Positions 46,449 to 51,567 of a DNA stretch of 61,290 nucleotides are shown here, piece by piece. The notes beneath the pieces were generated by a model that made no database searches, was not told the origin of the DNA, and worked only from the letters and a program-made list of their open reading frames with translations. A program made the translations under genes and the position numbers. How positions within the stretch are numbered: the first letter of the stretch is position 1; each line of letters opens with the position of its first letter. Source of the stretch: an uncultured archaeon (GTDB lineage: Archaea; Thermoproteota; Bathyarchaeia; 40CM-2-53-6; CALIRQ01); contig CALIRQ010000015.1 in assembly GCA_938042195.1 (NCBI GenBank), forward strand, positions 1 to 61,290. Direction: 5' to 3'.

Positions 46449-46928
46449 TTGGATTTGGCGGAAGAGGAAAAGGCCTCGGTATACGCGGTCCGAACTACGA
46501 CCGGCCAAGAGAAGACGGTGGCCGATATGATAGCCTCTAGGGCCGCATCGAGGAAGATACCGATCGCGAGCGTATTCGTTTCGGAGGCGATCAAGGGCTA
46601 TATATTCGTGGAGGCGCCTCGCCCGCAGTTCGTGGACGAGGCCATATCGGGCATGAGGCACGTCAGGGCGCGCACGAGGGGGGCCATCCCCCTCTCCAGC
46701 TTGCGAAAGTTCATAGAGACGAAGCCCGTGATAGAGGGCCTCAAGGTGGGAGATATGGTCGAGGTCGTTGGGGGTCCGTTCAGGGGGATGAGGGCGAAGA
46801 TAACGAGCATCGATAGGGTCAAAGAGGAGGCCACCATCGAATTGCTGGAGGAGGGCTTCGCCACGCTGCCCATAACGGTCCATGCAGATTATCTGAAGCC
46901 CGTCGAGGAGAGGGAGAGATCGGGTTGA
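46449..46928 (+). CDS. spt5: Transcription elongation factor Spt5/NusG
   Basis: A 159-residue protein with NGN domain (VYAVRTTTGQEKTVADMIA, FVSEAIKGYIFVEA) and KOW motif (GDMVEVVGGPFRGMRAKITS). Works with Spt4 (absent here) as RNA polymerase clamp factor. The start is TTG 46449. Its TGA overlaps the L11 ATG. Confidence 0.94.
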   Translation: MDLAEEEKASVYAVRTTTGQEKTVADMIASRAASRKIPIASVFVSEAIKGYIFVEAPRPQFVDEAISGMRHVRARTRGAIPLSSLRKFIETKPVIEGLKVGDMVEVVGGPFRGMRAKITSIDRVKEEATIELLEEGFATLPITVHADYLKPVEERERSG

Positions 46929-47401
46929 TGGGGAAGAAGAAGGAGATAGAGGTCCTCGTGAGCGGGGGGCAAGCGACCGCCGGCCCGCCCTTGGGGCCGG
47001 CCCTGGGCCCGCTCGGCGTCAACGTGCTCCAAGTCGTCAATAGGATAAACGAGCTCACGAAACCCTACTCGGGCATGAAGGTATCCGTGAAGGTAATAGT
47101 GGATTTGGAGACGAAGGGGTTTGAGGTAGTAGTCGGGACTCCTAGCACCGCGGCGCTGATAGTCAAGGAATTGGGCATCGAGAAGGGATCGGGCAACCCA
47201 AAGGCCGAGAAGGTCGGCGACATAGGCCTTGAGAGCGTTAGGAGGATCGCTGAGATCAAGATGGCGGACGGCTATGCCAAGGATCTGAAGGGCGCCATGA
47301 AGGAGGTCCTCGGCACATGCCTCAGCATGGGGGTCACGGTGGGCGGCAAGGATCCGAGGGAAGTTCAAAGGGAATTGGAGAGGGGCGGGGTGCCCGCTTA
47401 A
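46928..47401 (+). CDS. rpl11: Ribosomal protein L11
   Basis: A 157-residue L11: KKKEIEVLVSGGQATAGPPL, GPALGPLGVNVLQVVNRIN and the C-terminal rRNA-binding part with LKGAMKEVLGTCLSMGVTV. In most archaea L1, L10 and L12 follow; here the next genes are on the other strand and unrelated, so the cluster is broken. ATG 46928 chosen over TTG 46925. Confidence 0.95.
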   Translation: MGKKKEIEVLVSGGQATAGPPLGPALGPLGVNVLQVVNRINELTKPYSGMKVSVKVIVDLETKGFEVVVGTPSTAALIVKELGIEKGSGNPKAEKVGDIGLESVRRIAEIKMADGYAKDLKGAMKEVLGTCLSMGVTVGGKDPREVQRELERGGVPA

Positions 47402-47445: not shown

Positions 47446-47724
47446 TCAGACCAAGATCCTTCTGCAGCATATATGCCTCTTGGACCTTTTGACGAATTTG
47501 GGGCATCCGCCGCATTCCGCCAATAGGACCGGTTGGCGATCCTCGGGGCAAACGGCCAGCTCGAGCTCCAGGATCCTGTACCTAGGCGATGAAGGGGGAA
47601 CCCCGTTAAGCCTAATGAACTCGTTCAGGGTCAGCTCCGGCGAAAGGGGATCCTCGAGATCGATCACTAAGTTCACGGACCTTATCGGCCCATATACGTA
47701 CTTCTCGACGGCGCTAGCCGACAT
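47446..47724 (-). CDS. Unknown Cys-containing protein, last gene of crenactin operon
   Basis: A 92-residue protein with a beta-rich N-terminus (VYGPIRSVNLVIDLEDPLSP) and a C-terminal Cys cluster (AECGGCPKFVKR, then HICC), possibly a metal site with C58 upstream (LAVCPEDRQP). No family recognised. Its ATG overlaps the preceding gene by 11 bases, so it is translated with the crenactin operon and may be a cytoskeletal accessory (inference). Confidence 0.65.
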   Translation of the reverse strand: MSASAVEKYVYGPIRSVNLVIDLEDPLSPELTLNEFIRLNGVPPSSPRYRILELELAVCPEDRQPVLLAECGGCPKFVKRSKRHICCRRILV

Positions 47725-48373
47725 ATCTATCGGGGCCCTCCCTACCCCTCTTGGCTAGGATCTCCAGCCATGGGTTGTCCTTGAAGTATGAGGGGAGTTC
47801 CCCGCCTTGGAGGGGTGAGGGGGATGCCGGCGGCGCGGGCCTGCTCGGCAAGGGCTCCATGGAAACGTCTTGGGCAGGCTGGATCGCGATCGGCGCCCTC
47901 CTCAGGGACCTCAGCTCCCGATCCAAGGATTTCACCAAGGCCTCGAGCTCCAATATCTTCGCCCTTAAGCCCCTCAGTTCCTCCTCATCCACCCCGGGGC
48001 GCGCCGCTTGGGCCTTGGCCGGCTCCGACTCCTTGGCCCTTATTACCTCATCGAGGCGCCTCTCATCGAACGTTATGAGGCCCAAGCCCCTCTCCTCGAA
48101 TATCTCTCCATCTATCATTGAGGCGTAGAGCTTCGGGAGGGCCAAGTATACCATATGGGCCGACCTCTTGAGCTCCAGCGCTCCCATGGCGGCCGAGAGG
48201 ATCGAGGTCCTGTTTCCCACGGGGCTAAAGGGCATTACGACCACTTGGACCAATCGCTCCCCATCGCGGAAGGAGAGGATCGGAAACCCCAGATCGCCCG
48301 ACCCCCCATCCGAGGGGGTGAAGCCCCTCGCCGCGAAGTATTGCCTAATCCTCTCCTCCGGGGGTGAGCTCAT
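47714..48373 (-). CDS. Arcadin-2-like crenactin partner (candidate)
   Basis: A 219-residue protein in three parts: an N-terminal globular alpha/beta domain (1-120), a coiled coil (EEELRGLRAKILELEALVKS, about 127-160), and a Pro-rich linker ending in a short amphipathic helix (SYFKDNPWLEILAKRG). Arcadin-2 of Thermoproteales is coiled-coil-rich and docks its C-terminal helix in the crenactin groove; this layout and the position directly after crenactin make a similar role plausible. Overlaps crenactin stop by four bases. Homology itself is unproven. Confidence 0.7.
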   Translation of the reverse strand: MSSPPEERIRQYFAARGFTPSDGGSGDLGFPILSFRDGERLVQVVVMPFSPVGNRTSILSAAMGALELKRSAHMVYLALPKLYASMIDGEIFEERGLGLITFDERRLDEVIRAKESEPAKAQAARPGVDEEELRGLRAKILELEALVKSLDRELRSLRRAPIAIQPAQDVSMEPLPSRPAPPASPSPLQGGELPSYFKDNPWLEILAKRGREGPDRYVG

Positions 48374-49632
48374 GGCTTCATCCAGCCCTCCATCCTATCC
48401 CAATCCCATTCGTAATCCTCCGGGACCACATAGCCGTAGATTATGCAACCCCGCCAGACCGAGTACTGGGGGCTATCCGCGACGGTCACCTTGACGTTCG
48501 TTATCCCCCTCCTCTTCAAGAGCGCCTTAATCTTGGCCTTGGAATCGATCGCCAGCCCCTCGAGCTCCTTCGGGGCCTGCCAGCTGAAGTTCCCCCCGGA
48601 GAGCAATATCTGCCTATATAGGTGGGGTTGGAGCTCGACCGGACAGCGCTCCACGGATCTCGCGATGCCCTCCCCGAAGTCGAGCATGCCCAAGAAGGTC
48701 GTGTCGCCGATCTTCACATCCCTCGGCCTCGGCATTCCCCTCCTGAAGTAGCTCTGGAATATCTCGTGGTTCGGGTCGAATACGAACTCCCCTATGAGAA
48801 ACCGCCTCCACGGCTCTTCCTCGAGCTCCACCGTTATCCTCGTCCCCGGGACCTTGAACTTGGTCCTGAGCTTCCTCGGGTTCCTCTTCCCCTCCTCTAT
48901 GGCCTTATCCAGATCGGCGGGCACGAGGCCAATGCCCTCCTTCACCCTCCTCACCAGCGATTCCTCCCTCGCCAAATCCCCATAGCCCGCGTCCTTCATT
49001 ATCTCGGCCGTCAGCGCATTCGCGTCGCCGCCTCCCCTGTTTATGGTGACGACGGCGTTCCGGATGGGGTATCTGGATATGGGGCAGATCTGCGTGTTCC
49101 CATGCCCCGACTCTATCACAACGCAGGTCGTTATCTTATGGGCTATCGCGACCGCGAACGGTTGCGCGATCACCGTCGATGCCGCCACTAGGCCCTCCTG
49201 GCCAAGCTCCCCGTAGATCTTGAACAACCTCTCATACATGTACTTCGGGGCTATGGAGGAGAGGGAGGCTACGACATAGAAGCCCCTGAACTCCGGCTCG
49301 GGGGGCTTGAATGAGGATAGACCGTACCTGCTTATCTCCCTCACTACCGCCCATGCCTTTTCATCGTCCTTTGCTATAACTCCGTTCTTCATTGGATATA
49401 TCAGCCTGAGCGCCAAATCTTCACTGGATTGGAGATAGAGCGGGACCTCCTCGCCGACGACGACCTCCCTTGCCCGATCGAAGGCCCTATACATTATGGA
49501 TCCGGAATCCGGGAAGTACCCCCTGTTCTCTATTATCTGAGGCACCTCGCCGCATGATATCGGGCCGAACTTGAAATCGCTCGTCCCGTAATCCATCCCG
49601 AAGGCGTATGCCCTCTTATATTCCTCGGCCAT
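48370..49632 (-). CDS. Crenactin (archaeal actin homologue)
   Basis: A 420-residue actin-superfamily ATPase. Phosphate-1 loop FGMDYGTSDFKFG, VVGEEVPLYLQSSEDLALRL with YPMKNGVIAKDDEKAWAVV (subdomain 2/1 boundary), phosphate-2 VIESGHGNTQICPI, GGGDANALTAEIMKDAG, adenosine loop LLSGGNFSW, and a C-terminal SVWRGCIIYG (actin: AWRGG). Crenactins form double-helical filaments and occur in Thermoproteales, Korarchaeota and Caldiarchaeum. Overlapping genes on both sides mark a tight operon. Confidence 0.92.
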   Translation of the reverse strand: MAEEYKRAYAFGMDYGTSDFKFGPISCGEVPQIIENRGYFPDSGSIMYRAFDRAREVVVGEEVPLYLQSSEDLALRLIYPMKNGVIAKDDEKAWAVVREISRYGLSSFKPPEPEFRGFYVVASLSSIAPKYMYERLFKIYGELGQEGLVAASTVIAQPFAVAIAHKITTCVVIESGHGNTQICPISRYPIRNAVVTINRGGGDANALTAEIMKDAGYGDLAREESLVRRVKEGIGLVPADLDKAIEEGKRNPRKLRTKFKVPGTRITVELEEEPWRRFLIGEFVFDPNHEIFQSYFRRGMPRPRDVKIGDTTFLGMLDFGEGIARSVERCPVELQPHLYRQILLSGGNFSWQAPKELEGLAIDSKAKIKALLKRRGITNVKVTVADSPQYSVWRGCIIYGYVVPEDYEWDWDRMEGWMKP

Positions 49633-50170
49633 TCGGCATCCCCTCCTTCAGGATCGATGCCAAGACCTCGCTCGGCCTGCCCTTGCCGCGCTTGAAGATC
49701 CCCCGCAGGCTCAATATCCCGTGTTTGGGATGGGCCGTCAATGAGGCCCTCTGCCCCTTGAGGGTCAGCTTCGAGCTGAAGGATCCCTCGCGGTCCGAGC
49801 TGAACTCCTCCCCGACCCTCGATGCCCATTCCCTGAGCTTGGAGAAATCGAGCCCCTCTGGCCTGAGCGTCAGCGAGAGGCCGCACTCCTTCACATCGCG
49901 GCAGGCCCCCTCGAAGAGGGCATCGACGAACCAAGGCCTCGCCCCCTCCAGCTCCACCGCCACGTGAAGATCCCCGCGTACCTGAGGCGGGGACGGCATC
50001 GGGGAGAGGGCGCCGCCCGAGAAGACGTATCGCATGCCCTCCCTTTTCTTGAGCTTGCTGGCGCTCCCCATGTAATCCACGAGCTTGGCCCAGGGCTCCT
50101 CCTCCGAACCCTCCTCGACCCTCATATCATACCACATCCGCCCGGAGAGCTTAATGGCTTTGGGCCTCAA
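49616..50170 (-). CDS. Unknown protein encoded directly before crenactin
   Basis: A 184-residue protein, mostly predicted alpha/beta with no recognised motif. Segments such as GDLHVAVELEGARPWFVDAL and SSKLTLKGQRASLTAHPKHG suggest a compact beta-rich domain. TTG 50170 lies inside the end of the small gene before it, and its stop lies 17 bases inside the crenactin gene. Likely part of the crenactin machinery by position only; it could be an arcadin-1/3 counterpart, but I cannot show homology. Confidence 0.65.
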   Translation of the reverse strand: MRPKAIKLSGRMWYDMRVEEGSEEEPWAKLVDYMGSASKLKKREGMRYVFSGGALSPMPSPPQVRGDLHVAVELEGARPWFVDALFEGACRDVKECGLSLTLRPEGLDFSKLREWASRVGEEFSSDREGSFSSKLTLKGQRASLTAHPKHGILSLRGIFKRGKGRPSEVLASILKEGMPNGRGI

Positions 50171-50351
50171 GGCCGGGCCTCCTCTCCACTATGAGCTTAT
50201 CATCCGCTATCCTGACGGTGACCTCTTCGTTCGGCTTGAAGGGGAAAGAGGAATCCTTCATGAGGTCCGCGGCTATGTACAGGACCCCGGTCTTGCTGCC
50301 CTTGCTGGAGTACTTTATCCTCCCCCTTCCCTCCAACACCAAGCGATTCAC
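50151..50351 (-). CDS. Small beta-rich protein, first gene of crenactin operon
   Basis: A 66-residue protein: RLVLEGRGRIKYSSKGSKTG, VLYIAADLMKDSSFPF, and EEVTVRIADDKLIVERRP. The strand pattern and ending look AbrB-like, but this is uncertain. GTG 50351 is chosen because a TATA element (CTTATATT on minus, 50388-50396) would start transcription near 50365; the in-frame TTG at 50390 lies inside that box. Confidence 0.55.
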   Translation of the reverse strand: MNRLVLEGRGRIKYSSKGSKTGVLYIAADLMKDSSFPFKPNEEVTVRIADDKLIVERRPGLEAQSH

Positions 50352-50463
50352 CGCGCGAAATCTTGGATGGAGCATCGCGCGAAGCGCCAATATAAGCGAT
50401 GAGGGGGGAAGCCGAAATCGGGTGCTCGGTAAAAGTATTCATGCGAAAGCCGGGACGAAGGGC

Positions 50464-50778
50464 TCATAGTAAGCCCGCCTCTTTGAAGAGGGCCAAGAGG
50501 CCCTTCGTCAAAGGGCCCTCGAGGAGCGAGTAAAGCGATATCCTCCCATAGGCCCTCTTCCTCACCAAGCCCCGCTCCACGAGCATCGGCAAATGCTTCG
50601 TCACCGAAGCCCTCCCGAGCCCGCTGAACTTGGCGATCTTGTAAACGCTGAGCTCCTCCCGATGCCTCGCCAATGCCAATAATATCCTCAGCCTGCAGGG
50701 GTTCCCTAGGAGATCCGATATCGCCTTCTCGTACTCCCTCCCGCGCCTCGTCGGACCCACCCATCCCTCGGATCGCAA
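50464..50778 (-). CDS. ArsR-family winged-helix regulator
   Basis: A 104-residue protein: LLGNPCRLRILLALARHREE, VYKIAKFSGLGRASVTKHL (recognition helix), MLVERGLVRKRAYGRISLYS (wing). No metal-binding Cys pair typical of ArsR/SmtB sensors is seen. TTG 50778 would be leaderless relative to an AATAAAACC element at about 50803-50813. Confidence 0.85.
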   Translation of the reverse strand: MRSEGWVGPTRRGREYEKAISDLLGNPCRLRILLALARHREELSVYKIAKFSGLGRASVTKHLPMLVERGLVRKRAYGRISLYSLLEGPLTKGLLALFKEAGLL

Positions 50779-50939: not shown

Positions 50940-51185
50940 ATGGAGACGATGTCGAAAACCGTGAGCTTCAAAGTGCCCGCATCCGTCAAGGGCGAAATGG
51001 AGAAGCTCGAAGGCGAGATAGATTGGCCCGAGGAGTTGAGGAGGTTCGTGATCGAGAGGATCGAGCGCGTAAGGAGGGAGAAGGCCCTCGATGAGGTGCT
51101 CAAGGACTTGAGAAGGCTCGGCCCTGCCAAGGTGCCGCCGGGCTTCTCAAGGAAGTCGGTGAGGGAAGATCGCGATAGTTATTGA
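50940..51185 (+). CDS. vapB: VapB-type antitoxin
   Basis: An 81-residue protein of archaeal VapB type: KTVSFKVPASVKGEMEKLEG (ribbon-helix-helix-like start), DWPEELRRFVIERIERVRRE and a flexible C-terminus for toxin binding. It overlaps the VapC frame by about 11 bases. ATG 50940 or 50949. Confidence 0.85.
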   Translation: METMSKTVSFKVPASVKGEMEKLEGEIDWPEELRRFVIERIERVRREKALDEVLKDLRRLGPAKVPPGFSRKSVREDRDSY

Positions 51186-51567
51186 TGCGTCGGCCCTAGC
51201 GAGCTTATTGATGATGGAGCGCGGCCACGAGGAGATCGCCGGCTATTTGAAGGATTCCATAAGCGTGGATCACATCGCTAAGGAAGTTGGGAACACCATC
51301 TGGAAGGCCTATGCGAAGGGCCTCATAACTAGGGATGACGCCCTTGGGAGGTTTTCGAACAAGCTCACTAGGCTGGTGATAAGGCTATTCGGCGAAATGG
51401 ACCTGATCGAGGATGCGATCGGGATCGCGATCGATGAGGGCATCACCCTTTACGATTCATTATATGTGGCCTTGGCCTCGAGGGAGGGGGCCGCATTGCT
51501 CACGCTGGATAGCGCTCAAGCCCGAGCGGCGGAGAAGCGCGGGGTGAAGGCCATCCAAATACGTTAA
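51175..51567 (+). CDS. vapC: VapC PIN-domain toxin with noncanonical start
   Basis: A PIN-domain RNase of about 130 residues. Acidic residues: D in VIDASALASLL, E in DHIAKEVGNTIWKAY, D in TLYDSLYVALA, and D in LLTLDSAQA. The essential first Asp lies before any ATG, GTG or TTG: after TGA 51160-51162 the frame has only ATC, ATA and ATT. GAGGG at 51161-51165 is 9 bases before ATA 51175. The first standard start (51208) would lose the Asp. Either a rare start codon, coupling from vapB or a disabled toxin. Confidence 0.8.
   Translation: MVIDASALASLLMMERGHEEIAGYLKDSISVDHIAKEVGNTIWKAYAKGLITRDDALGRFSNKLTRLVIRLFGEMDLIEDAIGIAIDEGITLYDSLYVALASREGAALLTLDSAQARAAEKRGVKAIQIR

Follow-up and report, generated by a model that had tools for sequence, protein, structure and literature searches.

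A crenactin gene cluster with a divergent arcadin-2, and a candidate crenactin-docking tail on DNA-binding proteins of related archaea

A five-gene cluster around crenactin

In archaea without FtsZ and ESCRT, crenactin is a candidate for the machinery of division or shape. Here we describe a crenactin gene cluster from an uncultured archaeon of the class Bathyarchaeia (phylum Thermoproteota), which lies on contig 15 (CALIRQ010000015.1) of a 1.27 Mb genome assembly (GCA_938042195.1); the window that we analyzed is a stretch of 61,290 nucleotides of that contig. Five minus-strand genes run from position 50351 to 47446 and overlap one another by 20, 17, 4 (ATGA) and 11 nt, with coordinates and overlaps that agree with the original prediction, a reading of the letters and open reading frames (ORFs) that had proposed crenactin to be made with four small proteins. 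The cluster comprises the following features:

50151..50351, minus strand: P0001, about 66 residues, SpoVT/AbrB-MazE-like, the first gene (GTG start at 50351)
49616..50170, minus strand: P0002, or UPS (crenactin-upstream protein), 184 residues, predicted to form two ferredoxin-like halves (TTG start)
48370..49632, minus strand: P0003, crenactin, 420 residues (ATG start; PF00022, NCBIfam, PDB 4cj7)
47714..48373, minus strand: P0004, arcadin-2-like, 219 residues, with a PD-(D/E)XK-like domain, coiled coil, linker and docking tail (ATG start)
47747..47803, minus strand: predicted C-terminal crenactin-docking tail of P0004, GELPSYFKDNPWLEILAKR (tail profile E 2.1e-11)
47446..47724, minus strand: P0005, or ZNR, 92 residues, with a C-terminal Cys4 zinc-ribbon-like module (ATG start)
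47461..47568, minus strand: Cys4 module of P0005, common to a wider family of small proteins in archaeal genomes

The P0001 frame is open further 5′ (TTG at 50390, ATG at 50375), and the GTG at 50351 was preferred because it matches the N-termini of shorter homologues. The order P0002-like, crenactin, arcadin-2-like, P0005-like is found again in diverged genomes, and the arrangement is therefore beyond chance; the same cluster, with a crenactin that is 95% identical, is present at locus L002 (a record named Bathyarchaeota RSWS8).

Sequence comparison identifies P0003 as crenactin. The protein matches PDB crenactin 4cj7 over residues 2-420 (E 6.1e-113, 380.8 bits), as against E 3.1e-11 and 45.7 bits for the best non-crenactin actin, and it also matches PF00022 (E 1.3e-13) and, over residues 5-418, the NCBIfam crenactin profile (555.5 bits, E 7e-167). 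The identity first assigned to this gene is thus borne out at full length and in its greater nearness to crenactin than to other actins. Its named relatives are Thermoproteota-type archaea, and a survey of 398 Thermoproteota genomes returned a crenactin match in 129, a list that includes one doubtful 18-bit match (G342).

A divergent arcadin-2 directly downstream

By profile comparison, the gene that follows crenactin encodes a divergent homologue of arcadin-2 rather than an NCBI equivalog. P0004 matches the NCBIfam arcadin-2 profile NF053561 over residues 32-210 (E 2e-5, 24.4 bits, profile positions 27-196 of 196); it shares with that family the succession of a domain, a coiled coil, a linker and a tryptophan-bearing helix at the C-terminus, and differs from it in its low score. 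An iterative profile family grown from P0004 takes in, at 110 bits, the Thermoproteaceae arcadin-2 of locus L070, where true arcadin-1, -3 and -4 are neighboring genes. We collected 52 distinct crenactin loci, dropping eight that were duplicated between collections, and found that a member of the arcadin-2-like family adjoins crenactin in 48, mostly downstream and upstream in six (a minus-strand 160-residue ORF of L073, labelled ARC2, was excluded from the count). Linkage is thus conserved in relatives, as it is for P0002 and P0005.

The AlphaFold model of P0004 (mean pLDDT 77) consists of an N-terminal domain, a long helix of coiled-coil type at residues 130-159, a disordered linker and a terminal helix at residues 201-211 (pLDDT about 65-70 there) formed by the sequence NPWLEILAKRG. 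Within this tail the N, P, W and L are invariant in the family alignment of 18 homologues (NPWxxxL). A coiled coil and a C-terminal helix like that by which arcadin-2 docks had been proposed from the sequence, and the profile match, the adjacency to crenactin, the invariant tail and the modeled helices all uphold that proposal. The N-terminal domain is predicted to adopt the fold of PD-(D/E)XK nucleases, its closest likeness being XisH (2okf; Foldseek E 9e-5; Z 11.0, 3.2 Å over 107 residues), with further resemblance to PaqCI and EndoMS. Because the catalytic D..(D/E)xK pattern is not kept in the arcadin-2 family alignment, we read the domain as degenerate; nuclease activity is disfavored on the same ground.

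Excerpts of the account of Pyrobaculum arcadin-2 (PMC5173319) describe how its last 17 residues fill the crenactin groove, with a Kd of 31 nM for the complex, and how filaments dissolve. By analogy with that structure, and given the conservation of the motif, the tail of P0004 would be expected to dock in the groove of P0003. An excerpt of a second study (PMC9723716) places arcadin-2 between segregated nucleoids.

The tail recurs on other proteins of crenactin-bearing genomes

Searching the 398 genomes with the arcadin-2 alignment returned extra matches covering no more than the coiled coil and tail. Twenty of these were examined first, picked since their match reached the end of the model, and all were other proteins ending in the tail. 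A 19-residue tail profile (A6), which was trained on crenactin-positive genomes only and in which 18 of 53 rows are such extra proteins, found a match at E≤1e-3 in 111/129 crenactin-positive and 4/269 crenactin-negative genomes (p 2.6e-73 by Fisher's test, uncorrected for phylogeny); 51 crenactin genomes have two or more tail matches, second and later tails being counted up to E 0.1. In each of the 47 extra tail proteins that we read, the tail lies 10-19 residues from the C-terminus, and Pfam places HTH_23 in 20 of them, Sigma70_r4_2 in 20 and zf-C2H2_4 in five; AbrB-like and ribbon-helix-helix (RHH)-like tail proteins score weakly, and several have no recognisable domain. A profile built from arcadin-2 tails alone recovers 47/47 of these proteins at E≤1e-5, the proteins having themselves been selected on their tail; run against 2,230 ORFs from crenactin loci, it matches none of those that are not arcadin-2 at E≤1. 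We found no description, in a literature search, either of the tail on DNA-binding proteins or of UPS.

The four crenactin-negative genomes with a tail (G232, G280, G316, G327) contain no actin at E≤0.1. Two of them, G280 and G316, come from family f37, which is rich in crenactin genomes, and may be incomplete; the tail of G232 (L196, G232:C4, 5246-5503) lies on a separate 5.9-kb contig that also carries coiled-coil-like genes and may be a fragment of a plasmid or virus. Elsewhere, a gene for a helix-turn-helix (HTH) protein with the tail recurs in a conserved chromosomal setting (clusters c2 and c3), next to what we take to be ABC-transporter-like and GTPase-like genes. Three tail-bearing proteins of DNA-binding type, at L190, L191 and L198 (cluster c17), are encoded next to a gene that is presumably for a RadA-like recombinase.

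Together, these patterns point to the arcadin-2 tail as a general crenactin-docking motif, the tail itself being seen in the sequences and its docking being what they suggest. We regard this network, which lies outside the window, as the strongest and more surprising result of the analysis.

A possible link between crenactin and DNA

The presence of the tail on DNA-binding proteins suggests that crenactin may be recruited to DNA. We tentatively propose that crenactin is a DNA-linked actin whose groove acts as a hub for the C-terminal motif LPSF/Y..DNPWxxIL, which on arcadin-2 and on HTH, zinc-finger, AbrB-like and RHH-like proteins would recruit filaments or monomers to defined DNA sites, in the way that ParR recruits ParM. 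Arcadin-2, with its dead-nuclease-like domain, would then be one adaptor among several, and in the lineage of the window UPS and the small AbrB-like protein may be further, lineage-specific links. Excerpts of PMC5173319 report that ParR occupies the same groove on ParM; in both cases the groove of an actin-like protein takes, or here would take, a C-terminal helix, and in related archaea such a helix sits on DNA-binding proteins.

How far the parallel with ParM-ParR extends is a matter on which we are equally guarded. Crenactin might work in the same manner, with DNA-binding proteins holding it by coiled coil and tail at chromosomal or plasmid sites and so positioning or segregating DNA. The co-occurrence of tail and crenactin, the DNA-binding domains of the extra proteins, the nuclease-like fold of arcadin-2 and its position between nucleoids are consistent with such a role. 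ParR, however, promotes the growth of ParM filaments, whereas arcadin-2 depolymerises those of crenactin, and the likeness drawn here is one of sequence architecture and putative docking. Neither a centromere nor a ParR-type adaptor is seen in the window, although no search aimed at centromere-like repeats was made. The tails could instead serve transcription factors to sequester or sense free crenactin; the source genome, moreover, shows a single tail, that of arcadin-2, and the counts, uncorrected for phylogeny, also tell against the idea. If the tail-bearing DNA-binding proteins do dock, an archaeal actin would join ParM as a DNA-tied actin.

P0005 and P0001

Of the three small proteins that had been called unrecognised, P0002 and P0005 have no Pfam or NCBIfam name, whereas relatives of P0001 match MazE/AbrB; the suggestion that such proteins may be new components is a reasonable one for P0002 and P0005, which define crenactin-linked families. 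Searches of the PDB with the P0001, P0002 and P0005 families returned nothing credible.

P0005 is, by sequence, a Cys4 zinc-ribbon-like protein: C59, C71, C74 and C87 are invariant in an alignment of 11 members. Strong matches occur in 14/398 genomes, a count that omits 22 with only weak matches; all 14 are crenactin-positive, and in 13 the gene lies directly downstream of arcadin-2, the exception (G091) having it on another contig. Weak matches in other ORFs are mostly confined to model positions ~50-88, and the Cys4 module recurs in small proteins away from crenactin. These are archaeal proteins of 75-116 residues that end in a related module (CPV....V.F..C..C..FIRR..G.V.C; L112-L117, L121 and L122) and are unlinked to crenactin; one was tested and had no Pfam match.

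P0001 appears AbrB/MazE-like through its relatives, two of four family members matching PF04014 (best E 1.3e-4) and P0001 itself giving no match. It is conceivable, albeit somewhat doubtful, that P0001, as an AbrB-type repressor, and the zinc-ribbon protein P0005 are passengers or regulators kept by local co-transcription and stand outside the filament system, given that just four loci have a member of the P0001 family and that the Cys4 module of P0005 is found in other small proteins as well, away from crenactin. The close attachment of P0005 to arcadin-2 argues otherwise, since it persists in 13 of 14 genomes although identity to P0005 is only 39-51% among members other than its nearest relative.

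UPS, a crenactin-linked family

Pfam and NCBIfam contain no match to P0002, whose homologues form what is, on sequence evidence, a new crenactin-linked family, which we call UPS. A 17-member profile finds the family in 32/398 genomes, all 32 of them within the crenactin-positive set (one chance match, G031:C55, E 9.2e-4, is left out), and in each of the 32 the top match and crenactin are encoded on one strand, the match no more than 200 nt upstream. A distant member is also probable for L011, in the position upstream of crenactin (hhalign probability 89). The structure model of P0002 (pLDDT 89, pTM 0.83) is predicted, judged from the order of strands and helices, to comprise two ferredoxin-like halves. 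A fold search gave no convincing PDB relative, the best hits (Foldseek E 2.1e-3; Z 7.8) being common ferredoxin-like arrangements; matches to TBP and AdoMetDC are within noise, and no kinship with them is claimed.

The C-termini of UPS proteins vary, with an RHH-like extension in L003, L055 and L056 (one Pfam match, E 0.0023) and an often amphipathic end elsewhere. UPS could accordingly be imagined as a membrane tether of crenactin, acting through a short C-terminal amphipathic helix for which a ribbon-helix-helix tail is swapped in some lineages; many of the termini do look amphipathic with basic residues (GIFDKLLGWIR, GILGKIAKLIKG). We consider this unlikely, as a moment test of the termini was weak (8/32 in the top 5%, vs 9.4% of 722 control ORFs) and P0002 itself gives no amphipathic signal (rank 0.26).

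In arcade-type loci (L016, L017, L019, L075, L076, L077, L081, L082, L088 and L090), a different protein takes the UPS position immediately 5′ of crenactin. It is conserved, of coiled-coil type, about 75 residues long (KRKKELE..GEISEEE..K..LEREFIEIMDR..Q..Y), and is possibly another unnamed crenactin partner.

Comparison with the canonical arcade cluster

As in the arcade cluster of Pyrobaculum calidifontis (an order seen in L070), crenactin is directly followed here by a tail-bearing arcadin-2; that cluster differs in having arcadins 1, 3 and 4, where the present one has P0001, P0002 and P0005. A search of the five cluster proteins against arcadins 1-4, which the original prediction had put forward, gave the arcadin-2 match alone, with none to arcadin-1 (PF18653), arcadin-3 (NF053562) or arcadin-4 (NF053563). 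We therefore reject, as most improbable, the idea that this is a canonical Thermoproteales arcade with four arcadins whose small members have diverged past recognition: P0002 and P0005 do hold the positions of arcadin-1 and arcadin-3, but they lack any sequence match to those families, and no gene of arcadin-4 size follows. A large gene occupies the arcadin-4 position in 19/52 loci and in 0/17 loci with UPS; when two such genes were tested against the NCBIfam arcadin-4 cut-off, that of L070 fell above it and that of L074 below.

Elsewhere in the source genome, the arcadin-4 search gave weak, partial matches of SMC/Rad50 type only, and there is one sub-threshold arcadin-1 match of 19.8 bits. 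The latter falls in a 125-residue ORF (L123:1486-1863, minus strand; G000:C9), possibly a divergent arcadin-1 away from crenactin.

A new version of the crenactin/arcadin system

We class the cluster as a new version of the crenactin/arcadin system; taken as a whole it is probably a crenactin operon of non-canonical type, with a docking arcadin-2 and three small accessory or regulatory proteins. Several observations weigh against this reading. P0003 and P0004 both fall below the curated NCBI equivalog cut-offs, at 555.5 against 630 bits and, by a far wider gap, at 24.4 against 290; since just 42 of the 129 crenactin genomes reach 630 bits, we take that cut-off to be narrow and P0003 not to be odd. 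The P0001 family is found in only 4/52 distinct loci, and the assembly is only 93.6% complete. In favor of the reading, the source genome has no match at E≤1e-3 to FtsZ/tubulin or to Snf7, although the Snf7 absence is not firm, its control being weak (the model scores Sulfolobus below its cut-off).

In such an operon, P0003 would polymerise into actin-like double filaments, as crenactin does in Pyrobaculum, and P0004 would dimerise through its coiled coil. The NPWLEIL helix would then enter the hydrophobic groove of crenactin, compete with the D-loop and cap or dissolve filaments, a sequence of events shown for Pyrobaculum and suggested here by conservation of the motif. P0002 may be a dedicated crenactin accessory, placed upstream where arcadin-1 sits in Thermoproteaceae; P0005 may be a zinc-ribbon-like accessory; and P0001 could be a small AbrB-like regulator of the operon or a component that contacts DNA. 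Because the genes overlap so tightly, we infer that the five proteins are co-translated and kept at fixed stoichiometry. UPS, as a candidate partner family found only with crenactin, and a putative docking motif that would predict partners genome-wide open the role of crenactin to direct tests of binding and localisation.

Genes flanking the cluster

Three further sets of genes lie next to the cluster in the window:

50940..51567, plus strand: ORFs of 81 and 119 residues, resembling a VapBC pair by eye, with no Pfam match at 1e-3
46449..47401, plus strand: genes for NusG/Spt5 and ribosomal protein L11, convergent with the cluster
50464..50778, minus strand: a winged-helix regulator of ArsR/IclR type, directly upstream of P0001 on the same strand, a relative of which is likewise upstream in L002

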